Below, piece by piece: positions 4,789 through 16,665 of a stretch of DNA of 64,000 nucleotides. A program made the position numbers and the translations under genes. The notes under the pieces were generated by a model, which did not search any database, was not told where the DNA came from, and was given only the letters and a program-made list of their open reading frames with translations. The stretch is from an uncultured Lachnospiraceae bacterium. Its GTDB lineage: Bacteria; Bacillota; Clostridia; Lachnospirales; Lachnospiraceae. The stretch lies in assembly GCA_947648875.1 (NCBI GenBank), contig CANSPM010000001.1, positions 1 to 64,000 of the forward strand, read 5' to 3'. Position 1 is the first letter of the stretch, and each line of letters starts with the position of its first letter.

Positions 4789-5206
4789 ACAATGGAGTAT
4801 GACCATATTTCCGACGAAAAGCGGCCGTATGGCCAAGTATACAATAAAGGGTAAGGGTTATATAGTAATAAAGGACACGCCTGTCATATATATTTTATGA
4901 CAGGCGCGGTAACAGTAAATATGACATTGCCATACATAAAGAAAGCAGAGTAGCAGGGCATCTGTGCAAACAATAAAAGTGACAGGGATGTATAGGAAAA
5001 CGTGTCAGAATGGATGAATAGTTCTGTCTCCATTGGTATTTACAGGACAGACAATTCAAACTGCAATGCAAACATGGAATAAATCCGGCTTAGTAATGGC
5101 AAGATTTTTACAGAACTTTGCACTGGGAAATTCTGAACCGAGTGGTGAAGTCGCGACGCGCGGCGATGAAGGAGATCGAAAGATCTCCACTGGGAGGGAA
5201 GCGTAA
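4789..5206. other. Intergenic stretch with two hairpins
   Basis: No gene is seen. A perfect 10-base-pair hairpin (CGCCTGTCAT with ATGACAGGCG, 4878-4906) has a T-rich loop but no T run after it, so it is a poor terminator. A second perfect hairpin (GGAGATC-GAAA-GATCTCC, 5171-5188) ends four bases before the GGGAGG ribosome binding site of the LUD gene and could affect its translation. Confidence 0.6.
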
Positions 5207-5845
5207 ATGGATGAAAACAGAGAGAAGAGAAATGAACTGCTGGCGGCCACAGTTATCAGGGGGCTGGAGAGCCGCAATATGAAAGGTTATTATGCCGCCA
5301 CCAAAGCGCAGGCTCTGCAAATGGCCCTGGAACTGATTCCGCAGGGCAGCAGTGTGGGCTGGGGCGGCTCCATGAGCATTCAGGAGATCGGTTTAAAGCA
5401 GGCTGTGACCGAAGGCAATTACTGTGTGTACAATCGTGATGTCGCCCAGACCCCAGAGGAAAAGCGCAGGATCGAACTGGCCATCTATGATGCGGATTAT
5501 TTTCTCACCAGCAGTAATGCGGTGACGGAGGATGGGATTCTGGTCAATATAGACGGCAATTCCAACAGAGTATCGGCCATTGCCTATGGTCCCAGGCATG
5601 TGCTTATGATCGTGGGCATGAACAAAATCTGCAAGGATGTGGACGCGGCTGTGTACCGGGCCCGGAATGAAGCAGCAACCTGTAATACACAGCGATTTCC
5701 CATTCAGACCCCCTGCAAGGTGACAGGGTCCTGTGCGGACTGCAAATCCCCTGACACAATCTGCTGTCAGTTTCTGACCACACGCTTTTCCAGACACGCG
5801 GGGAGGATTCAGGTGATCCTGGTGGGCGAAAATATCGGTTTTTAG
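5207..5845 (+). CDS. LUD-domain protein (LutC/YkgG-like)
   Basis: A 212-residue LUD (lactate utilisation, formerly DUF162) protein. The family pattern is clear: the helix QALQMALELIPQGSSVGWGGSMS (about 35-57), IYDADYFLTSSNAVTEDGILVNIDGNSNRV (about 95-125) and a C-terminal cysteine group (CNTQ, CKVTGSCADCKSPDTICC, about 163-188). The cysteines suggest a metal or Fe-S site. LutC in other bacteria works with LutA and LutB in lactate oxidation, but neither is nearby, and free-standing LUD proteins in Clostridia have no settled role. The ATG follows GGGAGG. It appears to be transcribed alone. Confidence 0.85.
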   Translation: MDENREKRNELLAATVIRGLESRNMKGYYAATKAQALQMALELIPQGSSVGWGGSMSIQEIGLKQAVTEGNYCVYNRDVAQTPEEKRRIELAIYDADYFLTSSNAVTEDGILVNIDGNSNRVSAIAYGPRHVLMIVGMNKICKDVDAAVYRARNEAATCNTQRFPIQTPCKVTGSCADCKSPDTICCQFLTTRFSRHAGRIQVILVGENIGF

Positions 5846-5987
5846 TTCGGTTCTTATTTATAACAACAGACACCTCCCGGAGTGTGGCATCTATTGTTCC
5901 GGATATCTTAATAATTTCTTTCGTTTTTCCTTTGGTCGGGCTTTAGAAAGGGCTGTTATGCTTAGTTCGACGGAAGGAGAATGCGCT

Positions 5988-7130
5988 ATGAATATCTTGA
6001 TTTTAACCGGAAAATTTGGTATGGGACATTGGAGCGCCGCCCAGTCTCTGCGGCAGCAACTACTGGGCAGTCATCCCGGGGCGTCGGTGGAAGTGGTGGA
6101 TTTCCCTGCCTATGCCCTGCCAAATTTTTCGGGTCTTCTGTATAAGTTTTTCAATCTGATGGTTACCCGCGGAAGACATATCTTCAATATGTATTACCGG
6201 ATTACAGGCAAGGGACACCCCGATGCCCATCCGCCTTTTGAGGGGATATTTTTGGAGCGACTGACACAGTTGCTCTCCACACAGTGTCCGGATGTGGTGA
6301 TTGCCACGCATCCATTGTGCGCGCAGTTGGCTTCCCGGCTAAAGGATAAGGCCAAAGGGAGTATACCGATTCACACAGAGGACGGAGGTCCGCTGCATTA
6401 TTTTCTGGTAACATGCGTCACGGATGTGAGTACACATCCGGAATGGATTAACCACAACACAGACTGTTATCTGGTGCCCAGCGGGGATATTCGCCGGAGT
6501 ATGGAGAAGGGGGGGGTAGATCCCGCGCTGATCTGTGTCACGGGCATCCCGGTCAGAGAGGAGTTCCGGCGTTTGAACGCCAGGGGCGAGGGCCAGGCAA
6601 TGCACAGTGACGACAGAAAGCGGGAATTGCTCATTATGGGAGGCGGGCTGGGACTGCTTCCAAAGGACAATGCCTTTTATGAGGCTTTAAACCGGATTCC
6701 CCACACCCACACCACTATTATCACAGGCCGCAACAAAAGGCTTTATAGGCGCCTGCGGGGCAGATGGGAGAATATTCAGGTGGAGGGTTATGTGGGGCAG
6801 GTGTGGGACTATATGGCAAAAGCGGATCTGATCGTGTCTAAACCCGGCGGTATCACCCTGTTTGAGGCAATCTTTGCCAGGGTTCCCATTCTATCCTGGC
6901 CCCCGACTCTGCAAAATGAACGCAGTAACGCCAGGTGGATGGTGGAAAAGGGGATTGGCTGGGTGGCCGGTTCGGAGAACTGTGCCGGAGAGATACAGGA
7001 AATTCTGCTGGATAAAGGGCGTTTATCATCCGCAGCCTACCGTATGGAATGCATCAGGAGACAGCTGCAGGCGGGAACATTGAACCGAATGATGGATACG
7101 GTGTACAGGGAAAGACGGATTACGGCTTGA
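5988..7130 (+). CDS. MGDG-synthase-type glycosyltransferase (UgtP-like)
   Basis: A 380-residue cytosolic or membrane-associated glycosyltransferase of the MGDG synthase / processive diacylglycerol glucosyltransferase family. Landmarks are the N-terminal GKFGMGHWSAAQSL loop, the family segment with HTEDGGPLH, and the C-terminal donor-binding GT28 region (MAKADLIVSKPGGITLFEA, then QNERSNARWM). It should transfer a sugar from a nucleotide donor to diacylglycerol or a related lipid. The start at 5988 is preferred over an in-frame ATG 30 bases upstream because GGAAGGAGAA sits just before it. The next gene, 71 bases on, is a flippase-like protein, suggesting a glycolipid unit. Confidence 0.85.
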   Translation: MNILILTGKFGMGHWSAAQSLRQQLLGSHPGASVEVVDFPAYALPNFSGLLYKFFNLMVTRGRHIFNMYYRITGKGHPDAHPPFEGIFLERLTQLLSTQCPDVVIATHPLCAQLASRLKDKAKGSIPIHTEDGGPLHYFLVTCVTDVSTHPEWINHNTDCYLVPSGDIRRSMEKGGVDPALICVTGIPVREEFRRLNARGEGQAMHSDDRKRELLIMGGGLGLLPKDNAFYEALNRIPHTHTTIITGRNKRLYRRLRGRWENIQVEGYVGQVWDYMAKADLIVSKPGGITLFEAIFARVPILSWPPTLQNERSNARWMVEKGIGWVAGSENCAGEIQEILLDKGRLSSAAYRMECIRRQLQAGTLNRMMDTVYRERRITA

Positions 7131-7201
7131 GGGCGGCGGCCCATGAGCGCATTGGCAGTTTGCACAGAGTTACGCTATGGTTATGCAGGAAAGAGGTAAG
7201 T

Positions 7202-8290
7202 ATGATACAGGGAAAGAAGAAAAATATGGGCGGAATATTCCTGGCGGTCATGATGATTATAACCGGGGCGATATTGTTACGGGGACAGTCCATGAGCCTG
7301 CTGTGGGAGAGTTTGAAGCAGGTTAAAATCCCCTGTCTTTTCGGCGGTTTAGTCCTGATGCTGGGCTATGTGGGTTGTGAGGCCATGTGTACTCGGCAGA
7401 TCATGAAGCGGCTGGGCCACAGGGTTCCCTATAGGCGGTGTCTCGGATACTCTTTTGTGGGATTTTATGTGAGTTCCATTACGCCATCTGCCACAGGCGG
7501 TCAGCCTGCGCAGATTTACTGTATGAGCCGGGACCAGATTCCTGCCGCTCATGGGGCTCTGAATATGATGCTGATCGCGGCCTGCTATCAGACCGCCACT
7601 CTGATCTGGGGCGGGGGCGTATGGCTGTTTTTCCCCAGAGCCGGAGAATTTCAGGGGAGTATGGGGCTGCTGCTGTTATACGGAGCGGGCATGATGGTTC
7701 TGCTCACTTTGGGAATGGGGGTGGTGATGTTTCTGCCCGGGGTATCCCGGCGGATCTGTCTTGGGATTTTGCGGCTTTTGGAGAGGTTTCACCTGCTGCG
7801 AGATCCGGCCGCCATGCGGGAAAAGCTGGAACGGCAGTTGACGGAGTATGCCCAAGGCGCTGCCTGCATAAAGGCGAATCCGGGATTGGCCCTACAGGTG
7901 CTGATTCTGTGCCTGGTTCAGTTGGGAATGCTGTTCTCCGTCCCCTGGACGGTGTATCTTGCGTTTGGACTACAGGGACATGGCTGGATTCAGATAGCCG
8001 GTCTTCAGGCGCTGCTTACTCTTGCGGTGAGCAATCTGCCTTTGCCAGGTGCCGTGGGACCGGCGGAGGGGGGATTTGTAGCCGCCTTTGTCACGGTGTT
8101 TGGGGCCGCCATGGTCACCCCGGCCATGCTGGTCTCCAGGGGGATCAGTTTTTATGCGTTCCTGCTCCTCAGTTTTCTGGTGTCCATGGCGGTGCATCTA
8201 CGGCTCAGGGGAAGAGGCGCTGTGCTGCACCGCAGAAATAGGAATTTAAAGAAGTGTCGAGTTTTAGGGCTGCTACAGGATAAGGTGTAG
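7202..8290 (+). CDS. Flippase-like integral membrane protein (UPF0104/AglD family)
   Basis: A 362-residue protein with about eight hydrophobic segments, matching the lysylphosphatidylglycerol-synthase membrane region family. The conserved loop FYVSSITPSATGGQPAQIY and the later segment LPLPGAVGPAEGGFVAAF are diagnostic. Members are suggested to move or present glycolipids or modified lipids. There is no C-terminal aminoacyl-transfer domain, so it is not MprF. The start at 7202 follows AAAGAGG; a longer frame would overlap the preceding gene. It probably shares a transcript with the glycosyltransferase, and its stop overlaps a terminator. Confidence 0.8.
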   Translation: MIQGKKKNMGGIFLAVMMIITGAILLRGQSMSLLWESLKQVKIPCLFGGLVLMLGYVGCEAMCTRQIMKRLGHRVPYRRCLGYSFVGFYVSSITPSATGGQPAQIYCMSRDQIPAAHGALNMMLIAACYQTATLIWGGGVWLFFPRAGEFQGSMGLLLLYGAGMMVLLTLGMGVVMFLPGVSRRICLGILRLLERFHLLRDPAAMREKLERQLTEYAQGAACIKANPGLALQVLILCLVQLGMLFSVPWTVYLAFGLQGHGWIQIAGLQALLTLAVSNLPLPGAVGPAEGGFVAAFVTVFGAAMVTPAMLVSRGISFYAFLLLSFLVSMAVHLRLRGRGAVLHRRNRNLKKCRVLGLLQDKV

Positions 8291-8302
8291 CAGCTTATTT
8301 TT
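8269..8302 (+). terminator. Terminator overlapping the flippase-like stop
   Basis: A perfect 9-base-pair stem (GCTGCTACA with TGTAGCAGC) and an 8-base loop, followed by TTATTTTT. The stop codon of the membrane protein lies within the stem. Confidence 0.85.
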
Positions 8303-8330
8303 GGGTAATAGCGGCTGCTTTCTTTTTTCC

Positions 8331-8359
8331 TGTACATAAATATCTTTTTCCTGTACAAT
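8331..8359 (+). promoter_or_regulatory. Promoter of the GTPase-nuclease fusion, inside a direct repeat
   Basis: TGTACA (8331-8336), 17 bases, TACAAT (8354-8359). A 13-base direct repeat TTTTTCCTGTACA occurs at 8324-8336 and 8345-8357, a 21-base period (two helical turns), so each copy overlaps one promoter box. This suggests a bound regulator. The leader to the start codon is about 140 bases. Confidence 0.5.
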
Positions 8360-8505
8360 GGATAAAGACGATCATATTGCGTCTTCCCGTACAGCGTGCT
8401 GATGAATGTCCGGATGCTTCAATCAGTGGGATACGCATGCCCCGGGTGGTGCTGCGGAAGGGGGACAGGCGGAACATAAATAGAGGACAAGGAGCGGCAA
8501 AGGGC

Positions 8506-11500
8506 ATGGAAGATAAGGTTTATACAAAACTGGTGGTGGGCATTCTGGCCCATGTGGATGCCGGAAAAACCACATTGGCGGAAGGAATTATGTATCTGAC
8601 CGGAGGAATCCGAAAGCTGGGCCGGGTGGACCACGGGAATGCCTTTCTGGATACCCATGCCCTGGAGAAAGCCAGAGGTATTACCATATTCTCAAAGCAG
8701 GCACAGATCAGTGTTGACTGTGGCGGTCAGACAAGGGAGATTACGTTGCTGGATACCCCGGGGCATGTGGATTTTTCCGCCGAGACTGAGCGCACGCTAC
8801 AGGTACTGGATGCCGCGATTCTCGTAATCAGCGGTGCGGACGGGGTGCAGGGACATGTGGAGACTCTGTGGAAGCTGCTTCGGCGCTATGGGGTTCCCAC
8901 CTATCTGTTTATCAATAAGATGGACCAGCCCGGGACGGACCCGCAGATACTGCTTGAGCAGCTGCGGGAGCAACTGGATGAGAACTGCGTGGATTTCAGT
9001 GCGGCGGATGCATTTCTGGGAGCGGATAACGGAGATATTTTGCTGCGGAGTCAATGGAAACCTGCTGAACAGGAAAAAACGGAGGGAAGTTCAAGGGGGC
9101 ACCATAGAGAGGCCGGGCCATTGTCGCGGGAGCAAAGAAACCAGGGAGATAGCAGGCAGTCGACGCAGGCTCTGAGGGGCCAGGGAGACATCGGCCGGAT
9201 GACATCGGACCAGGGTATGCCCGGAAACGTGGATGACTTCACCCGTGAGCAGTGGATGGAGAGAACCGCTCTGTGCAGTGAGGAAATGATGGAATCCTAT
9301 CTGGAGAAAGGAGCGTTGACTGTCCCGGACATTCGCGAGGCCATTCGCAGACGGCAGCTTTTCCCCTGTTATTTTGGCTCGGCTCTGAAACTCCAGGGGG
9401 TGGACGAATTGTTACAGGGCATTGCCCGCTACACCTATGAGCCTGCCTATGGGCAGGAACAGGCGGCCAGGGTGTATAAGATTGAGAGGGACACAAGCGG
9501 CAGCCGTCTGACCCATCTGAAAGTGACCGGGGGAGTCCTGAAGGTGAAAGGGTTGCTGGAGGGGGAGAAAATTGATCAGATTCGTATATATTCCGGGGCG
9601 GGATACAGGCTGGCAGAGGAAGCCCCGGCGGGATGTATCTGTGCCGTAACAGGGCTTGAAAAGACTTACAGCGGCCAGGGGCTGGGCGCTTCGGCAGACG
9701 GGGAAAAACCCAGTCTGGTACCGGTGCTCAGTTATCGGGTGGAACTGCCGGAAGGTTGCGATGTGCATAAAACGCTGAAAAACCTGTATCTGCTGGAAGA
9801 GGAGATTCCTGAGCTGCACATTTTGTGGCAGGAGGGCAGGAATCCCGGGGAGGGCGAGATTCACGCCCAGGTCATGGGACAGGTGCAGATCGAGATTTTG
9901 CAGGAATTGATTGCCGGGCGATTCGGCACGCAGGTGTCTTTTGGGGAGGGAAGCATTGTATACCGGGAGACGATTACGGGGCCGGTGGAGGGGGTAGGGC
10001 ACTTTGAGCCGCTGCGCCACTATGCGGAGGTGCATCTGTTGCTGGAACCGGGGGAGCCGGGCAGTGGTTTGGTGCTGCGGGCGGATTGCGGCGAGGATGA
10101 TCTGGACAGGAACTGGCAGCGGCTGGTGTTGACGCACTTGGAGGAAAAGGAACATAAGGGAGTTTTGACCAATTCAGTCATAACAGATATGCGGATTACA
10201 CTGATTGCCGGAAAAGCGCATTTGAAGCACACGGAGGGCGGGGATTTTCGACAGGCTACTTACCGGGCCCTGCGACAGGGACTGATGAAAGCGGAGAGTC
10301 GACTGTTGGAGCCCGTGTATTCCTACACGCTGGAACTGCCCACGGAGAATCTGGGACGGGCTATGAATGATATACAGAAAAGGAGCGGGTGTTTTGACGA
10401 TCCGGTGACTTCGGGAGAGCGCAGTATTCTCAGAGGTACAGCTCCTGCGGCCACATTAAACGGCTATCAGATGGAGGTAAGCGCCTACACCAGAGGCAGA
10501 GGCAGACTGTCCTGCCAGTTCCACGGCTATGCCCCCTGCCACAATGAGCAGGAGATTATTGAGAACTGTGGCTATAATCCCGATCACGATTTGGATAATC
10601 CCGCCGATTCGGTATTTTGTGCCCATGGGGCGGGTTTTATCGTACCCTGGCAGCAGGTGGAGGAGTATGCTCATGTGGACACGGCAGACAAGCTGCGTCG
10701 TATGCGGCCGGAAATATTTGGGCCGATTGCGGAGGGCGGCGGGGATTCTCGATTTTCCATCCGGGGAGAGGAAAGCGGTGATGTACCTGGGGGAAGTGCG
10801 GGAGCTTTTCAGGGCGCGGGGCAGCATCGCGGCGGGCGGGATGGCCGCGCGGCCCGGGAGGACCGTTTTATCAGTCAGGAGGAGATCGAGGAGATCTATC
10901 TGCGCACATATGGCACGAAGGCGCTGGACAAGAACCCCTGGAACAGGCCTGCGGCTTCCCACAGAAGCGCCTCTCCGGCCAGGGAGCCAGTCTACAGAGG
11001 CACGCCCGGGCAACGCCGGGAGCGGTATCTGTTGGTGGACGGCTACAACATTATTTTTGCCTGGGAGGATCTCCGGGACATGGCCCGGGATAATGTGGAG
11101 GGGGCCCGAACAAAGCTGATGGACATCCTCTGTAATTACCAGGGCTATATACAGGACACCTTGATTCTGGTGTACGACGCTTATAAGGTCAAAGGAAATC
11201 CCGGTACAGTACAGAAATATCACAATATCCATGTGGTCTATACCAGGGAGGCGGAGACTGCGGACCAGTACATTGAGAAGACCGTACACCGGATAGGGCG
11301 GAAATATCAGGTGACGGTGGCCACCTCCGACGCCCTGGAGCAGGTGATTATCTGGGGGCAGGGCGCGGCCCGCATGTCCGCGCAGGAACTGCGCCGGGAG
11401 GTGGAAAGCCACACTCGTCAGCGTCTGGCGGATTGGCAGGATCAACAGGAAGGAGGACGTTTTTTTGTCATGGAGGAGAAGCTGCGGCAGGTGGGGCTTC

Positions 11501-11517
11501 CGCCGGATTCGGAATAA
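8506..11517 (+). CDS. TetM-like ribosomal GTPase fused to Rae1/YacP-like NYN endonuclease
   Basis: A 1003-residue two-part protein. Residues 1-~740 form a translational GTPase of the TetM/TetO type: G1 AHVDAGKTTL, G3 DTPGHVDF, G4 NKMD, then domains II-V, with domain IV around GVLTNSVITDMRI and domain V around RGRGRLSCQFHGY. A hydrophilic insert fills about 183-245. After a Gly/Arg-rich linker (~740-835), residues ~838-985 form a NYN domain close to Rae1/YacP, with the acidic residues of LLVDGYNIIFAW, LVYDAYKVKG, ETADQYIEK and VATSDALEQ all present. Rae1 cuts mRNA in the ribosomal A site, so the fusion probably couples ribosome binding to mRNA cleavage. The start at 8506 follows AAGGAG. Tetracycline resistance is not implied. 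Confidence 0.9.
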   Translation: MEDKVYTKLVVGILAHVDAGKTTLAEGIMYLTGGIRKLGRVDHGNAFLDTHALEKARGITIFSKQAQISVDCGGQTREITLLDTPGHVDFSAETERTLQVLDAAILVISGADGVQGHVETLWKLLRRYGVPTYLFINKMDQPGTDPQILLEQLREQLDENCVDFSAADAFLGADNGDILLRSQWKPAEQEKTEGSSRGHHREAGPLSREQRNQGDSRQSTQALRGQGDIGRMTSDQGMPGNVDDFTREQWMERTALCSEEMMESYLEKGALTVPDIREAIRRRQLFPCYFGSALKLQGVDELLQGIARYTYEPAYGQEQAARVYKIERDTSGSRLTHLKVTGGVLKVKGLLEGEKIDQIRIYSGAGYRLAEEAPAGCICAVTGLEKTYSGQGLGASADGEKPSLVPVLSYRVELPEGCDVHKTLKNLYLLEEEIPELHILWQEGRNPGEGEIHAQVMGQVQIEILQELIAGRFGTQVSFGEGSIVYRETITGPVEGVGHFEPLRHYAEVHLLLEPGEPGSGLVLRADCGEDDLDRNWQRLVLTHLEEKEHKGVLTNSVITDMRITLIAGKAHLKHTEGGDFRQATYRALRQGLMKAESRLLEPVYSYTLELPTENLGRAMNDIQKRSGCFDDPVTSGERSILRGTAPAATLNGYQMEVSAYTRGRGRLSCQFHGYAPCHNEQEIIENCGYNPDHDLDNPADSVFCAHGAGFIVPWQQVEEYAHVDTADKLRRMRPEIFGPIAEGGGDSRFSIRGEESGDVPGGSAGAFQGAGQHRGGRDGRAAREDRFISQEEIEEIYLRTYGTKALDKNPWNRPAASHRSASPAREPVYRGTPGQRRERYLLVDGYNIIFAWEDLRDMARDNVEGARTKLMDILCNYQGYIQDTLILVYDAYKVKGNPGTVQKYHNIHVVYTREAETADQYIEKTVHRIGRKYQVTVATSDALEQVIIWGQGAARMSAQELRREVESHTRQRLADWQDQQEGGRFFVMEEKLRQVGLPPDSE

Positions 11518-11705
11518 GCGTCCGGCGGCCGGATGGAGTTTGAACCTATGGAAGATTGCGCACTTGCGGCAGTCCGTTGCGCCAGGTCGTATTTCGTCAT
11601 AAAAAGGTAGGATTTATGCATTGTTTATGAGGGAACACCGCTATATACTGAGAAAAAGCATTCCTGTGGTCGAAGAGCGGGCGGCGGGTAAAACAGGAGG
11701 TCATT

Positions 11706-12719
11706 ATGAAGAGAAAAGTGGCGATTGTGGGGTGTGGAGGGATAGCGCAGGTACATACCCGGGCCATTCAAGATCTGGAGGGTACGGAACTGTGCGCCTT
11801 TGTCGACTGTAGGTTAGAACGGGCGAAAAAACTTGCGGCCCAATACGGTGGGGCGGGGGCCGGGATATATGAGGGAATTGAGGAAATGTTGTCCGCCGGG
11901 AAACCGGATGTGGTACATATCTGCACGCCCCATTATCTTCATGTACCAATGGCGATTAAGGTGCTGGAGAGCGGCGGATCGGTCTTTATGGAGAAGCCTC
12001 CGGCTATTTCCAGGGAGCAGTTTGCACAGTTGGAAATAGCGGCAGAGGGTAGCACAGGGAAGCTGGGAGTGTGCTTTCAGAACAGGTATAACGCATCCAC
12101 AAAAAAAGTGGATGAACTGTTGCGGGAGGGCAGTCTGGGAGAAGTGAAAGGCGGCAGAGCCTTTGTCACCTGGAACCGGGGCGCGAATTATTATCAGGAC
12201 AGCGATTGGCGGGGAAGATGGGAGACGGAAGGCGGCGGCGCGCTGATCAACCAGTCCATTCATGCCCTGGACCTTTTGCTGCGATGGCTGGGGGAGCCGG
12301 ATGTGGTGGAGGCGTCCATGGGAAATCATCACCTGCGGGGGGTGTGTGAGGTGGAGGATGTGACGGAGGCTTTTCTGGGATTTCCGGGGGGAAAAAGAGC
12401 CTGCTTTTACGCCACCACGGCCTACGTGTCCGATGAACCGGTGCTGATAGAACTTGCCTGTGAGAACGGTAGTATCCGCCTGGAGGGGGAGCGGGTAACG
12501 GTGCGCTACTCCCGGGGCGAAGAGGCTGTTTTTCTGTTGAAAACAGGCTCTTCGGCGGGTAAATCTTACTGGGGATGTGGTCATGCGGCCTGCATTGGTG
12601 ACTTTTATCATAGTCTGGAATACGGGACTTCCTACGCGAATGATCTGGGGGCGGTGGCCAACACGCTGAGAGTCATGATGCGGATTTATGAAAGCGCGGG
12701 GAGAGGATCACTTTTTTGA
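11706..12719 (+). CDS. Gfo/Idh/MocA family oxidoreductase (first)
   Basis: A 337-residue NAD(P)-dependent dehydrogenase. The N-terminal Rossmann fold carries GCGGIAQVHTRAI, and the family motif appears as MEKPPA around residue 96. The C-terminal half is the alpha/beta dimerisation and substrate domain, with GGALINQSIHALDLL containing the usual catalytic-region histidine. Members oxidise or epimerise sugars and cyclitols. The ATG follows AGGAGG. It heads a three-gene set with a second family member and a TIM-barrel isomerase, as in inositol- or sugar-acid-type pathways; the substrate cannot be assigned. Confidence 0.88.
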   Translation: MKRKVAIVGCGGIAQVHTRAIQDLEGTELCAFVDCRLERAKKLAAQYGGAGAGIYEGIEEMLSAGKPDVVHICTPHYLHVPMAIKVLESGGSVFMEKPPAISREQFAQLEIAAEGSTGKLGVCFQNRYNASTKKVDELLREGSLGEVKGGRAFVTWNRGANYYQDSDWRGRWETEGGGALINQSIHALDLLLRWLGEPDVVEASMGNHHLRGVCEVEDVTEAFLGFPGGKRACFYATTAYVSDEPVLIELACENGSIRLEGERVTVRYSRGEEAVFLLKTGSSAGKSYWGCGHAACIGDFYHSLEYGTSYANDLGAVANTLRVMMRIYESAGRGSLF

Positions 12720-12952
12720 TGCCATTTGGCGGCGACTTTGGCATTCGGGTTGAAACGTCAATCAGGAGCATAAAACAGCATATTTCCAGTAAATACACGG
12801 GCCCGTATCCGGGGATCTGAATATGACTTTACAGGGGGCCGTGTCCGGGCATATGGAAACGGCTTTACGGGCCACGTCAGGCCGATTGAAAGCGGCCTCA
12901 AGGGGAACGTCATTTCGCTGGAAGGAGTATGCGGAACGCAAGGAGGAAAAAC

Positions 12953-14107
12953 ATGGAACAGGTCAGATTGGGAATTATCGGAATCGGTGGCATGGGAAGC
13001 AACCATGCCAGGAGCATTCTGGAGGGCAAAGTGCCAAAGATGCGGCTGACGGGGGTAGCCGATGTGAGGGAGGCCAGAAGAGAGTGGGCAAAAAAGGAGC
13101 TTCCTTCGGATGTGGCCGTCTACAGCGAGGGAAAGGAACTGATTGACAGCGGTGTGTGCGACGCCGTGCTGATCGCCACGCCCCACTATCAGCATCCGGA
13201 GTTGGTAATCTATGCTCTGGAGCACGGCCTGCACGCGATCAGCGAGAAGCCCGCGGGGGTCTACACCAAACAGGTCCGGGAGATGAACGAGGCGGCGGAG
13301 AAATCAGATAAGGTTTTTGCCATTATGTTTAACCAGAGAACCAACTGTGTCTACCGAAAAATGCACGATATGATCGCCGGCGGGGAACTGGGACAGATCA
13401 AGCGGGTGAACTGGATCATCACGGACTGGTACCGTACCCAGAGTTATTACGACGCGGCGGACTGGAAGGCCACCTGGGATGGGGAAGGCGGCGGCGTATT
13501 GCTGAACCAGTGCCCGCACCAACTGGATCTGATCCAGTGGCTGTGCGGCATGCCGGTGCGGGTACGGGCTTTCTGTCACGAGGCCAAATGGCATGACATA
13601 GAGGTGGAGGACGATGTGACAGCCTATCTGGAATATGAAAACGGGGCCACAGGCGTTTTCGTCACCACCACTGCCGATACGCCCGGCACCAACCGACTGG
13701 AGATCACTCTGGAAATGGGCAAGCTGGTGTGTGAGAACAATAAGCTCCTGCTGTATCGCCTGAGTGAAAACGAGAGAGTTTTCTGCAAAACCTCCCCGGA
13801 GGGATTCGCCCAGCCGAAATGTACGTTGGAGGAGGTGGAGACCGACGGGCAAAATGAACAACATGTGGGAGTACTGAAAGCGTTCGCGGGAAAAATTCTT
13901 CACGACACGCCCCTGGTGGCGGAGGGAACCGAGGGGATCCGCGGCTTAACCCTCTCCAACGCCATGCATCTGTCCAGTTGGCTGGACCGGATGGTGGAGA
14001 TACCCTTTGATGAGGAACTGTTTTTACAGGAACTGAACAAAAAACGGGCAACTTCCAGGAAAAAGACAGGCAGCGGCGTTGTGTTCGATACCACGGGAAC
14101 TTATTAA
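12953..14107 (+). CDS. Gfo/Idh/MocA family oxidoreductase (second)
   Basis: A 384-residue homologue of the preceding enzyme: Rossmann motif GIGGMGSNHARSI at the N-terminus, SEKPAG near residue 100, and GGVLLNQCPHQLDLIQWL in the substrate domain. The start at 12953 is chosen because AAGGAGG lies just before it; an ATG 24 bases upstream lacks a site. A 233-base gap separates it from the first enzyme. Two divergent family members side by side suggest successive oxidation and reduction at different carbons of one sugar, as in keto-sugar epimerisation routes. That is inference. Confidence 0.88.
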   Translation: MEQVRLGIIGIGGMGSNHARSILEGKVPKMRLTGVADVREARREWAKKELPSDVAVYSEGKELIDSGVCDAVLIATPHYQHPELVIYALEHGLHAISEKPAGVYTKQVREMNEAAEKSDKVFAIMFNQRTNCVYRKMHDMIAGGELGQIKRVNWIITDWYRTQSYYDAADWKATWDGEGGGVLLNQCPHQLDLIQWLCGMPVRVRAFCHEAKWHDIEVEDDVTAYLEYENGATGVFVTTTADTPGTNRLEITLEMGKLVCENNKLLLYRLSENERVFCKTSPEGFAQPKCTLEEVETDGQNEQHVGVLKAFAGKILHDTPLVAEGTEGIRGLTLSNAMHLSSWLDRMVEIPFDEELFLQELNKKRATSRKKTGSGVVFDTTGTY

Positions 14108-14264
14108 ACCCTTTGCGCCAGTAGCCGGACGGTAAAGTCTCGAAAGCGCGCGGAAGCAAATTTTATGAGAGCGTTTTCGAAGGAAGTTTGTCTCCCTTGG
14201 CGTACTGAAGAGACTTTCCCTTTTAGAGCCATTGGACAGCGATTCTTTTAAGAGGAGAAAATAT

Positions 14265-15110
14265 ATGTTTGATAATATCATTTTAACGGGATTCGCGGAC
14301 GAGATTGCCGCGTCTCTGGACACCCAGATGCAGGTGCTGGACAAATTACATATGAGCCACATTGAAATGCGGGGAGTGGACGGAAGAAACTTTGTGGAAT
14401 ATACAAAGGAGGAAGCCCGGGACATCAAAAAGCGCCTGGATGACAGGGGATTTGCTCTCTCGGCTGTCGGCTCTCCCATCGGAAAGATCGGGATTACAGA
14501 TGATTTCGCGCCCCACATGGAACTGTTTAAGCATACTGTGGAACTGGCCCATATTATGGGGACGCCCAATATCCGGATGTTCAGCTTCTATGTTCCCAGG
14601 GAGAAAGCGGAAAGCTATAAGGAGAAAGTGCTGGAGCAGCTGGGACAGTTTGCGGATTATGCCGTCGCCAATGAGGCTGTTCTGCTCCACGAGAATGAAA
14701 AGGGGATTTACGGGGAGATGGCGCAGAGCTGTCTGGATATCATGAAATGTTTTGCGGGGCCGCACTTTAAAGCCGTTTTTGATTTTGCCAATTTTGTGCA
14801 GGCAGGGCAGGACACCCTGGAAGCCTATGAGCAGCTGAAACCCTACATCGCTTACATCCACGTGAAGGATGCCCTTCTTCGGGACGGGAGCGTGGTTCCG
14901 GCGGGCCATGGGGACGGCAATGTCAGGGAGATTCTGGGCAAGTTGAAAGCCGGCGGCTACAGCGGATATCTTTCTCTGGAGCCCCATCTCTCGGAGTTTA
15001 CGGGCTTTTCTTCCCTGGAGAAGGAAGGCCAGATCGGCAGAAAACTGTCCGGGGAGGAAGCCTTTACCCTGGCGCATGACGCACTGTTAAAGATTCTGGA
15101 AGAATTATAG
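14265..15110 (+). CDS. Sugar phosphate isomerase/epimerase-like TIM-barrel protein
   Basis: A 281-residue protein of the xylose-isomerase-like TIM-barrel superfamily. Typical metal-site strands are visible: VLLHENEKGIYGE, FKAVFDFANFVQAG, YIHVKDALLRDG and YLSLEPHL, giving the Glu/Asp/His/Glu divalent-metal pattern. It probably isomerises or epimerises a keto-sugar or inositol-type compound made by the two upstream oxidoreductases. The start at 14265 follows AAGAGGAGAA; a TTG further upstream is less likely. It is last in the three-gene set, and a terminator lies about 145 bases downstream. Confidence 0.85.
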   Translation: MFDNIILTGFADEIAASLDTQMQVLDKLHMSHIEMRGVDGRNFVEYTKEEARDIKKRLDDRGFALSAVGSPIGKIGITDDFAPHMELFKHTVELAHIMGTPNIRMFSFYVPREKAESYKEKVLEQLGQFADYAVANEAVLLHENEKGIYGEMAQSCLDIMKCFAGPHFKAVFDFANFVQAGQDTLEAYEQLKPYIAYIHVKDALLRDGSVVPAGHGDGNVREILGKLKAGGYSGYLSLEPHLSEFTGFSSLEKEGQIGRKLSGEEAFTLAHDALLKILEEL

Positions 15111-15254
15111 GCATGACTCGTTATTTCTTTTTGAGGTACTGTGTACCTGCCGGAAATAGACTATAAGTCTGTTTCCGGCAGCAGGGTAGAAGATAAATCG
15201 GATAAATCGCCGCAACCACAAGGTTTGCGGTGATAAGGAAGTCATTTCGGATTA

Positions 15255-15295
15255 GGCGGTACAGCTCCTGTTACAAGGGCTGTACCGCCTTTTCT
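15255..15295 (+). terminator. Terminator downstream of the sugar operon
   Basis: A perfect 11-base-pair stem (GGCGGTACAGC with GCTGTACCGCC), a 13-base loop, then TTTTCT. Confidence 0.85.
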
Positions 15296-15605
15296 GGCGC
15301 TCTATGAGCGCAAATCTTACCTGTTTACCTTTTCCGGCGCACAGACTATGATTTTCTTGATAATTTCTTTGATGATTACCCGGCCAGCTCGTCAATACTT
15401 CAAACAGCACTGTAGCTGCCGTCCACCGGCAATTTGCCGATAAACGGATTGGTGGTGGAAGGGCCGCTGTGGCCTCTCCCATTGCTACCCAGCCGGGTTC
15501 ATTCTCTGTATTCGGTTTCATAGACGGTTTGTTTCCCATATTCTGTACCGCGCCGGATTCGCTTCCCATGCCCCTTTGACAGGGATATTCAGATATTGGA
15601 GCCTG

Positions 15606-15640
15606 CTCTTTTAGAGGAACATATCGTTCCTCTAAAAGAG
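15606..15640. repeat. Perfect 15-base-pair inverted repeat
   Basis: CTCTTTTAGAGGAAC and its exact complement flank a 5-base spacer. Neither side has a T run, so it is not a classic terminator. It lies in the gap between the sugar operon and the converging AraC gene. Confidence 0.7.
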
Positions 15641-15696
15641 ACGATCCGGATATCACGCTTGATACGGCGGAGCGGGAGACGGGTACGAACGGGAGA

Positions 15697-16665
15697 CTAC
15701 TGCCTTCTCACAGGTCGGACGAACTTCCAGAATCGCTCAGGGTCATGGTACAGATAGCCGATTCTTCCGGGAGTGGTGTCCAGACAATAGCCGGACTTTT
15801 CATAGGCAAAAGCATTCATTGCCTCTTCCACTTTGTTTTCCACACTACAGTTTTCCTGATCGTAATGAAACGGTCCGTGCTCAAACACGATGTACTCGCC
15901 CTCGGGGACTTCCATCATAAGCATCTGCGATGGCACTTCGCCCTGATAATCCAGGGGCAGGCGTACCCCATAGCACTCCGCAAGGGGAATGCCCCAGCTG
16001 CAAAGCCGGCCCCTGGGATCATTGAGATATCCAATGATCTGTCCGCTGCCACTGTTGCTCTCACTGCCGCCCAGATCGTCCAGCTTGCCTTTAATGCTGT
16101 CTAACAGGCCGCAGACGGTTTCACAGTCCTGGCCGGGAATCCGGCTCTGTTTCTGCCAGAAGTCCCAGTACCCGATGCTCTCATAGTTCCGGATGTGCAG
16201 GAACTTGTGGGCGGGAATGGTTACAAAATAAATCTTGATTTCTTTTGCGGATTGTATCATACCTGTCTCTCCTATTTCCAAAAAGTAGCGGTCAAAAGGG
16301 TGGATCTTGGTGCGGAGTACTACGGGCACAGGGTTTTTGCGGTATTCCATGGGGGTGATGCCGTAGGCGGCTTTGAAGGCCCGGGTAAAGGCTTCGTGGG
16401 AGGAAAAACCGTAGTCCACGGCGATTTCCAGAAAACTGCGGCGGCTGTCCCGCACTTCCCACAATGCGAAAGCCAGTCTGCGGAGCCGCAGGTAGTCCCG
16501 GAACTGCATGCCCGTTATCTCCCGGAACTTCCGGGTGACATGGTATTCGGAATATCCCAGCTGGCAGGAGAGAGCGCGCAGCGTCAGCGCATCGTCCTGA
16601 TGGCTCTTGATGCATCTGTCTATTTCGTCAATAATAATTTGAATCTGCTGCTGCCACTCGTACAC
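15697..16665 (-). CDS. AraC-family regulator with GyrI-like effector domain
   Basis: A 322-residue regulator. Residues 1-~110 contain two AraC-type helix-turn-helix units (LRALSCQLGYSEYHVTRKFREITG and FLEIAVDYGFSSHEAFTRAFKAAYGITP). Residues ~125-322 resemble the GyrI/small-molecule-binding domain found in multidrug-sensing regulators. The start is taken as GTG at 16665 because GGGAGG lies just upstream and the domain begins there; the frame remains open 56 codons further without support. It lies 139 bases after degV on the same strand and may share its transcript. The effector is unknown. Confidence 0.85.
   Translation of the reverse strand: MYEWQQQIQIIIDEIDRCIKSHQDDALTLRALSCQLGYSEYHVTRKFREITGMQFRDYLRLRRLAFALWEVRDSRRSFLEIAVDYGFSSHEAFTRAFKAAYGITPMEYRKNPVPVVLRTKIHPFDRYFLEIGETGMIQSAKEIKIYFVTIPAHKFLHIRNYESIGYWDFWQKQSRIPGQDCETVCGLLDSIKGKLDDLGGSESNSGSGQIIGYLNDPRGRLCSWGIPLAECYGVRLPLDYQGEVPSQMLMMEVPEGEYIVFEHGPFHYDQENCSVENKVEEAMNAFAYEKSGYCLDTTPGRIGYLYHDPERFWKFVRPVRRQ

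Follow-up and report, generated by a model that had tools for sequence, protein, structure and literature searches.

An EF-G/Tet-type GTPase fused to a Rae1-type endonuclease as the probable Rae1 of a Lachnospiraceae bacterium

What does a bacterium do with a translational GTPase that carries an RNA endonuclease domain at its C-terminus? The question is raised by one gene in a 64,000-nucleotide (nt) stretch of DNA from an uncultured Lachnospiraceae bacterium (assembly GCA_947648875.1, contig CANSPM010000001.1, positions 1 to 64,000; the whole stretch is called the window below). The gene runs on the + strand from an ATG at 8506, with AAGGAG 11 nt 5' of it, to a stop codon ending at 11517. We propose that its product is probably the cell's Rae1, that is, the ribosome-associated mRNA endonuclease tethered to a ribosome-binding GTPase of the EF-G/Tet family. 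Rae1 is described as an A-site mRNA endonuclease in passages of two papers (PMC6613710; PMC12320835). The architecture itself is not new, since passages of Atkinson 2015 (PMC4342817) report Tet-NYN fusions in ten Clostridiales species, for which a role in resistance was guessed; beyond that paper, no report of it was found in the open-licence literature. What is new here is the fused protein as the Rae1 of its lineage, a motif in the linker and a change in the Rae1 tail, none of which appears in those passages of Atkinson 2015.

The 1003-amino acid (aa) product consists of a full EF-G/Tet-type GTPase, a linker of ~105 aa and an NYN_YacP (Rae1) domain, arranged as follows.

8506..11517, + strand: whole gene, EF-G/Tet-type translational GTPase plus Rae1/YacP NYN endonuclease domain (single frame, 1003 aa)
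8533..9432, + strand: G domain, residues 10-309 (Pfam GTP_EFTU, E 4.8e-48)
9028..9240, + strand: low-complexity insertion in the G domain, about residues 175-245 (segment length versus relatives; model confidence)
9460..9951, + strand: domains II and III, about residues 319-482 (NCBIfam tet_protect and EF-G matches; AlphaFold2 model)
9952..10296, + strand: domain IV, residues 483-597, with tip motif GKAHLKHTEGGDF at 569-581 (Pfam EFG_IV; TetM alignment)
10300..10548, + strand: domain V, residues 599-681 (Pfam EFG_C)
10549..10710, + strand: C-terminal extension, residues 682-735, with SVFCxHGAGFxVxW at 702-715 (conservation, model)
10711..11028, + strand: low-complexity linker, residues 736-841, predicted to be disordered apart from the motif helix
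10870..10917, + strand: linker motif ISQEEIEEIYLRTYGT, residues 789-804, with a predicted helix at 791-802 (conservation, model)
11029..11451, + strand: NYN_YacP (Rae1) domain, residues 842-982 (Pfam, E 5.9e-48)
11446..11514, + strand: degenerate C-terminal tail, about residues 981-1003 (region of the conserved R-R end in separate Rae1s)

The first-pass annotation of this DNA had described one open frame with a GTPase followed by an NYN domain with its acidic residues, and this is confirmed by Pfam, NCBIfam, the AlphaFold2 model and alignments. The nuclease domain scores 163 bits, above the curated cut-off of 24.6. In the GTPase part, the motifs G1 (AHVDAGKTT), G2 (RGITI), G3 (DTPGH) and G4 (NKMD) are invariant or almost so among 80 aligned proteins (the window protein and 79 of 80 loci, L049 being left out because it is split over two frames; the 80 loci match the window best and are hence a friendly sample). 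With domains II-V also present, the protein belongs to the EF-G/EF2-family translational GTPases. Domains II and III have no Pfam match at E 0.001 in the window protein; we accept them because NCBIfam matches cross the region (e.g. tet_protect over residues 246-675) and because the top structural match of the AlphaFold2 model aligns to EF-G across residues 3-694. At the tip of domain IV, H572, K574, H575 and T576 are each present in 80/80 aligned proteins, and the pattern GxxHxKHTxGGDF occurs in 138 of 145 distinct fused sequences (143 of 150 rows before duplicates were removed) and in 16 of 20 unfused ones. The C-terminal extension is predicted to form a beta-hairpin between helices. The segment at residues 160-261, which includes the G-domain insertion, measures 102 aa in the window protein; in five close relatives it has 47-60 aa, and its median over the 80 rows is 27 aa; the predicted local distance difference test score (pLDDT) is below 50 at residues 182-240.

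The name 'TetM-like', also given in the first-pass annotation, holds only as far as an EF-G/Tet-type GTPase is meant. The nearest solved sequences are EF-G (219 bits) and TetM (217 bits), which are nearly tied, and the best overall NCBIfam match, tet_protect, reaches 364 bits against a cut-off of 775. The EF-G equivalog cut-off is missed as well (TIGR00484, 263 bits versus 659); the window protein differs from EF-G by its tip H-x-K-H-T-E-G-G, the low-complexity insert in the G domain, the C-terminal extension, the linker and the nuclease. No TetM chain is among the 50 structural-match entries listed for the model, which is uninformative on the fold.

An indication of function comes from the distribution of the two parts. 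If the fused domain does the work of Rae1, separate Rae1s are expected to be nearly absent from genomes with the fusion. In 245 genomes of the window's order (completeness of at least 90% requested), NYN_YacP was found in 226, as one match only in 221 of these; the single match in the window's own genome is the fused one. Members of the GTPase subfamily, detected with a profile of domains IV-V plus extension (at least 194 bits, counted by hand), occur in 127 of the 245: 99 are fused and 26 unfused, and in 2 (G117, G252) contig ends truncate the gene. A gene was called fused if its open frame had 848-1077 aa or was common with an NYN match, the status being taken from frame length where the NYN row was not among the matches listed; that of G135 is split over two frames. 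A separate Rae1 frame (171-226 aa) is present in 26/26 genomes with an unfused GTPase (sequences were read for 20 of these copies; among the other six, the frames of G059 and G199 are short, 454 and 472 aa); among the 99 fused genomes just two (G149, G167) have an intact one. In the fused genome G085, a remnant of a separate Rae1 (L234, C6:18274-18513; 41 bits) contains an internal stop codon and is likely a snapshot of replacement; another fused genome, G056, has a 26-residue NYN fragment of 27 bits. Fused genomes being nearly all devoid of a separate Rae1, the distribution suggests that the fused form is the Rae1 of this lineage.

The nuclease shows the conservation expected of a working domain in its acidic residues, D845, D891, D920 and D942, which, going by the NYN/PIN fold, are the catalytic ones. 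An alignment of 147 fused and 48 separate domains, including divergent relatives, was made after removal of duplicates, short rows and repeat fetches. D845 is present in 146 of the fused domains, the remaining one having an X, and the other three in 147/147 each; all four are D in 48/48 separate Rae1s. Loss of these residues in homologues, named in the first-pass annotation as what would refute it, is thus not observed. The only solved chains that the domain matches are two entries of YacP (Rae1), and it agrees with separate Rae1s at most of the conserved core positions. These entries (PDB 5MQ8 and 5MQ9), which name YacP and presumably represent the Bacillus subtilis protein, share with the window protein the four aspartates and a matching GQGA-x-R-x-SA-x-EL region. 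They differ from it in being a separate protein, a 181-residue chain with a C-terminal R-R tail, whereas the domain in the window stands behind a GTPase and its tail is degenerate.

Both enzymes and the linker motif are under strong constraint. The ratio of nonsynonymous to synonymous substitution rates (dN/dS), computed for five close pairs, is lowest in the NYN core (0.009-0.036), followed by the linker motif (0.029-0.070), the G domain (0.055-0.103) and domains II-V plus extension (0.082-0.102), and it is higher in the C-terminal tail (0.11-0.33); since dS is close to saturation, the order of the regions counts more than the values. The linker outside the motif gives 0.50-1.42 at residues 736-785 (4 of 5 pairs, the fifth undefined) and 0.09-0.17 at 807-838.

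The tail is where fused and separate Rae1s part. In a comparison of 47 separate and 126 fused sequences (truncated, repeat and short rows dropped), K149 falls from 79% in separate to 6% in fused sequences, D159 from 91% to 13%, R170 from 98% to 46% and R171 from 81% to 2%. K149, D159 and R170 are relaxed in every fused family group of more than two rows; N152, L154 and E167 are partly retained in these groups. The window protein has G997-L998 at the positions of R170-R171 and so lacks the R-R tail end, which is a feature of the separate Rae1s found here and, as no published criterion, does not itself bar membership in Rae1. In alignment, R170-R171 correspond to R165-R166 of the B. subtilis protein, and passages of one study list R166P among rae1 suppressor alleles of an efp mutant, read by its authors as loss of function (PMC6613710). 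The tail may thus serve docking in free Rae1 and become dispensable once a GTPase docks.

The linker carries a motif with the consensus E-[IL]-x-x-I-F-x-R-T-[YF]-G. The linker is 76-148 residues long (median 100.5; 126 of 132 rows measured), and in the AlphaFold2 model of the window protein its pLDDT is below 50 on either side of the motif (738-789 and 803-835). A first, too strict pattern was found in 64/151 rows; a wider regular expression, written after the misses had been seen, in 126/151 rows (121 of 145 distinct linkers without repeat fetches), whereas 50 shuffles gave 0.48 matches on average and 3 at most. Because of that widening, the shuffles test chance and not the choice of pattern. 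The 25 rows missed include divergent forms such as EEIDQIL. The motif was met in fused proteins only. It was not found in 20 unfused GTPases, which end right past the C-terminal extension, where the linker begins in fused proteins, at most about 15 residues beyond it (about 30 in the distant L160). Separate Rae1s mostly have no room for the motif, their NYN domain mostly starting <30 residues from the frame start. A second AlphaFold model, of a Roseburia inulinivorans homologue (L099; mean pLDDT 86.1), has a helix at its motif (685-696), which is weak support because most rows are common to the alignments behind the two models and local pLDDT values are low (about 49-68).

Judged from sequence trees, the fusion appears to have a single origin. 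In two trees of the GTPase, for both of which rows were thinned, all fused rows (61, with a Shimodaira-Hasegawa-like approximate likelihood ratio test (SH-aLRT) value of 99, or 60 including divergent ones, with 98) lie on one side of a branch and 20 unfused rows on the other. When rooted on L160, the fused rows form a clade, with L141 as the nearest unfused row. A tree of the NYN domain requires at least four changes; no starred branch in it rules out a single origin, and it has few columns and long branches. The fusion is retained across many genera, and the several family codes of fused genes within one clade suggest transfers between families.

Several points weigh against the fused protein being the cell's Rae1, or against the evidence for it. 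Genomes G149 and G167 have an intact separate Rae1 beside the fusion, and in 101 of the 245 genomes of the order NYN_YacP occurs without a clear GTPase of the subfamily (hand count; G252 and G257 included). At the level of the class, where the subfamily, fused or unfused, occurs in 84/196 genomes, 11 genomes were judged to have an unfused copy; 6 of these have a separate Rae1 and 5 are without NYN_YacP. The GTPase therefore has a job of its own and can work without Rae1, and a strict partnership between the two, as the 26/26 within the order had suggested, was dropped. Ribosome binding, GTPase action and cleavage are attributed to the fused protein from its sequence, and there would be competition between domain IV and Rae1 for a single A site. 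The GTPase trees were quick ones, made without bootstrap, with long-branch warnings and rooted on one long row; the dN/dS ratios are rough, dS being near 1 or saturated in the pairs. The relaxation of the tail, given a single origin of the fusion, amounts to one evolutionary event, it lies where the alignment is weakest, and R166P could be harmful simply through helix breaking.

Two observations on unusual copies belong here. In four of the five class-level genomes without any NYN_YacP match (G350, G454, G336, G311; loci L236-L239) the GTPase is a free-standing EF-G/Tet paralogue, and no NYN remnant was found near it in the stretches fetched. In G257, the NYN domain (L229, G257:C1:1213034-1213444) lies in a frame of 931 aa, and the GTPase part of that frame reaches only about 30 bits with the subfamily profile; the gene is either a strongly diverged fusion or one with a different partner.

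How could the fused protein act as Rae1? According to passages of PMC8161019, the binding sites of Tet-type proteins and of EF-G overlap and extend to the A site, and the genes for SmpB and transfer-messenger RNA (tmRNA), adjoining each other, are present in this genome; docking, tethered delivery and cleavage are proposed on these grounds. The GTPase part in its GTP form would dock at the EF-G site of the ribosome, and domain IV would enter the decoding region, thereby selecting paused ribosomes with an empty or blocked A site, the presumed trigger. The Rae1 domain would be held on a flexible tether of ~100 residues with one conserved, probably helical, docking motif. As the A site cannot hold domain IV and Rae1 at the same time, their action would have to be sequential or on different ribosomes: Rae1 would most likely act once GTP has been hydrolysed and domain IV withdrawn, or on a neighbouring ribosome, for either of which the tether appears long enough. 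The A-site codon would then be cut and the truncated complex rescued by tmRNA-SmpB. In its fullest form, in which the GTPase probes the A site, the linker helix replaces the docking tail of Rae1 and the tethered endonuclease cuts, so that one protein clears the ribosome, this scheme is put forward only tentatively, and the partners that motif and tail may bind are part of the conjecture. If true, Lachnospiraceae and many other Clostridia would have a form of bacterial no-go decay that is GTP-gated and self-delivering. A natural Rae1 carrying its own GTPase would also make the route of Rae1 to the A site, and its choice of ribosomes, directly testable, since tail, linker motif and GTPase can be removed separately and the effect read on known Rae1 targets.

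A self-delivering mRNA cutter, as envisaged in the first-pass annotation, is thus still the best reading: the fusion is real, the nuclease residues are kept, purifying selection is strongest in the NYN core among the regions measured and the separate Rae1 is mostly gone. Another part of that proposal, ribosomes stalled by a drug as the target, found no support. The scores lie far under the Tet cut-offs, the tip H-x-K-H-T differs from the TetM loop, half of the fused genomes in a chosen sample of ten hold a true Tet gene and the neighbourhood is not conserved.

Two independent jobs in one chain are the alternative that survives best, and we consider it unlikely. An EF-G-like accessory factor (for recycling, back-translocation or rescue) would be joined to a Rae1 that cuts as usual, and the fusion would set only the ratio and place of the two. 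It is favoured by the occurrence of Rae1 without the GTPase and of the unfused GTPase without Rae1, and by the length and mostly disordered nature of the tether; the conserved motif in 121/145 distinct linkers, together with the loss of the former Rae1 tail, points instead to mechanical coupling, and many genera have retained the fusion.

NYN and PIN domains include nucleases of transfer RNA (tRNA) and ribosomal RNA (rRNA). The fused domain could by that token cut rRNA or tRNA, in maturation or in damage control on the ribosome, and not mRNA, and passages of Atkinson 2015 (PMC4342817) propose a test for an rRNA RNase and cite a proposed role in rRNA/tRNA maturation. The match to YacP alone among solved chains and the agreement with the core positions of separate Rae1s argue against it, as does the activity of Rae1 described in the passages cited at the outset (PMC6613710; PMC12320835), and we regard this explanation as improbable.

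The remaining candidate is a tetracycline-type ribosomal protection protein with an RNase domain that contributes to resistance, as suggested in passages of Atkinson 2015 (PMC4342817), where proteins of the same domain architecture were read as resistance genes with a possible RNase-based action. The likeness to Tet(M)/Tet(O)-type proteins consists of EF-G-like domains I-V with the fold and order of EF-G/TetM, a C-terminal extension and the general Tet model as best NCBIfam score. The window protein differs from them in its scores (besides tet_protect, 233 bits for TetM/W against a cut-off of 1100), the domain IV tip, the C-terminal extension (by inspection) and the NYN domain. Three unfused relatives are likewise far under the Tet cut-offs. 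At the positions of YYSP in loop III of TetM the window protein has AHLK; passages of PMC4750697 show that TetM tolerates S508A/P509A/V510A and that loop changes are tolerated if the loop conformation is kept, so that the difference at the tip, where H-x-K-H-T is conserved, is not decisive and sequence cannot by itself exclude the activity. Genes of the Tet(M/W/O/S) group were sought in 14 genomes, the window's and 13 others picked mostly for extra hits to the GTPase profile, and found above cut-off in 7 of the 14, which is not a rate. Among the 10 fused genomes tested, true Tet genes coexist with the fusion in five (G254, G267, G216, G281, G258); the other five (the window's, G108, G071, G098, G138) have none above cut-off, and there the fusion could still serve in resistance. 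Taken with the scores and the lack of a conserved neighbourhood, this leaves tetracycline protection the least probable of the three alternatives, very improbable in our judgement, and the fused gene is probably not a TETRACYCLINE-resistance gene. As the first-pass annotation had anticipated, the family name 'tetracycline resistance' hides the fusion: in Agathobacter rectalis, a fused homologue carries the annotation 'TetM/TetW/TetO/TetS family tetracycline resistance ribosomal protection protein'. On an apparent housekeeping gene of common gut bacteria, such a label could inflate counts of resistance genes in metagenomes. The record with the A. rectalis homologue (L243, NZ_CP143948.1 24767-27568) is 252 kb long and is listed as a plasmid.

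The genomic context gives no function. Flanking genes of 80 relatives were clustered and no conserved neighbourhood was found: the largest cluster, in 13/80 loci, occupies mixed positions, for which reason an operon partner was rejected. Upstream of the gene are one terminator-like stem (8267-8296) and one promoter-like site (8331-8359). A drug-inducible leader was rejected: no Rfam family reached the gathering threshold in 5000-16000, and the counts in the scanned region are equal to or little above those in shuffles (promoter-like 2 versus 2.0, terminator-like 4 versus 2.5).

NYN matches also came from 23 records of plasmids and 13 of phages, none of them reaching 60% identity. Of the 15 plasmid matches listed, two (H1 and H2, on 252-kb and 518-kb records) are annotated as GTPases, eleven as NYN/Rae1 and two are unannotated; the phage matches listed are without annotation. 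Carriage by plasmids or phages was rejected. The single phage record opened, L244 (MT835514.1 13867-21292, 'Bacteriophage sp.', human stool), has the fused gene between an rsmH-like and a glutamyl-tRNA-synthetase-like frame, both named by reading of the translations, and because of these flanks it looks like bacterial DNA mislabelled as phage.

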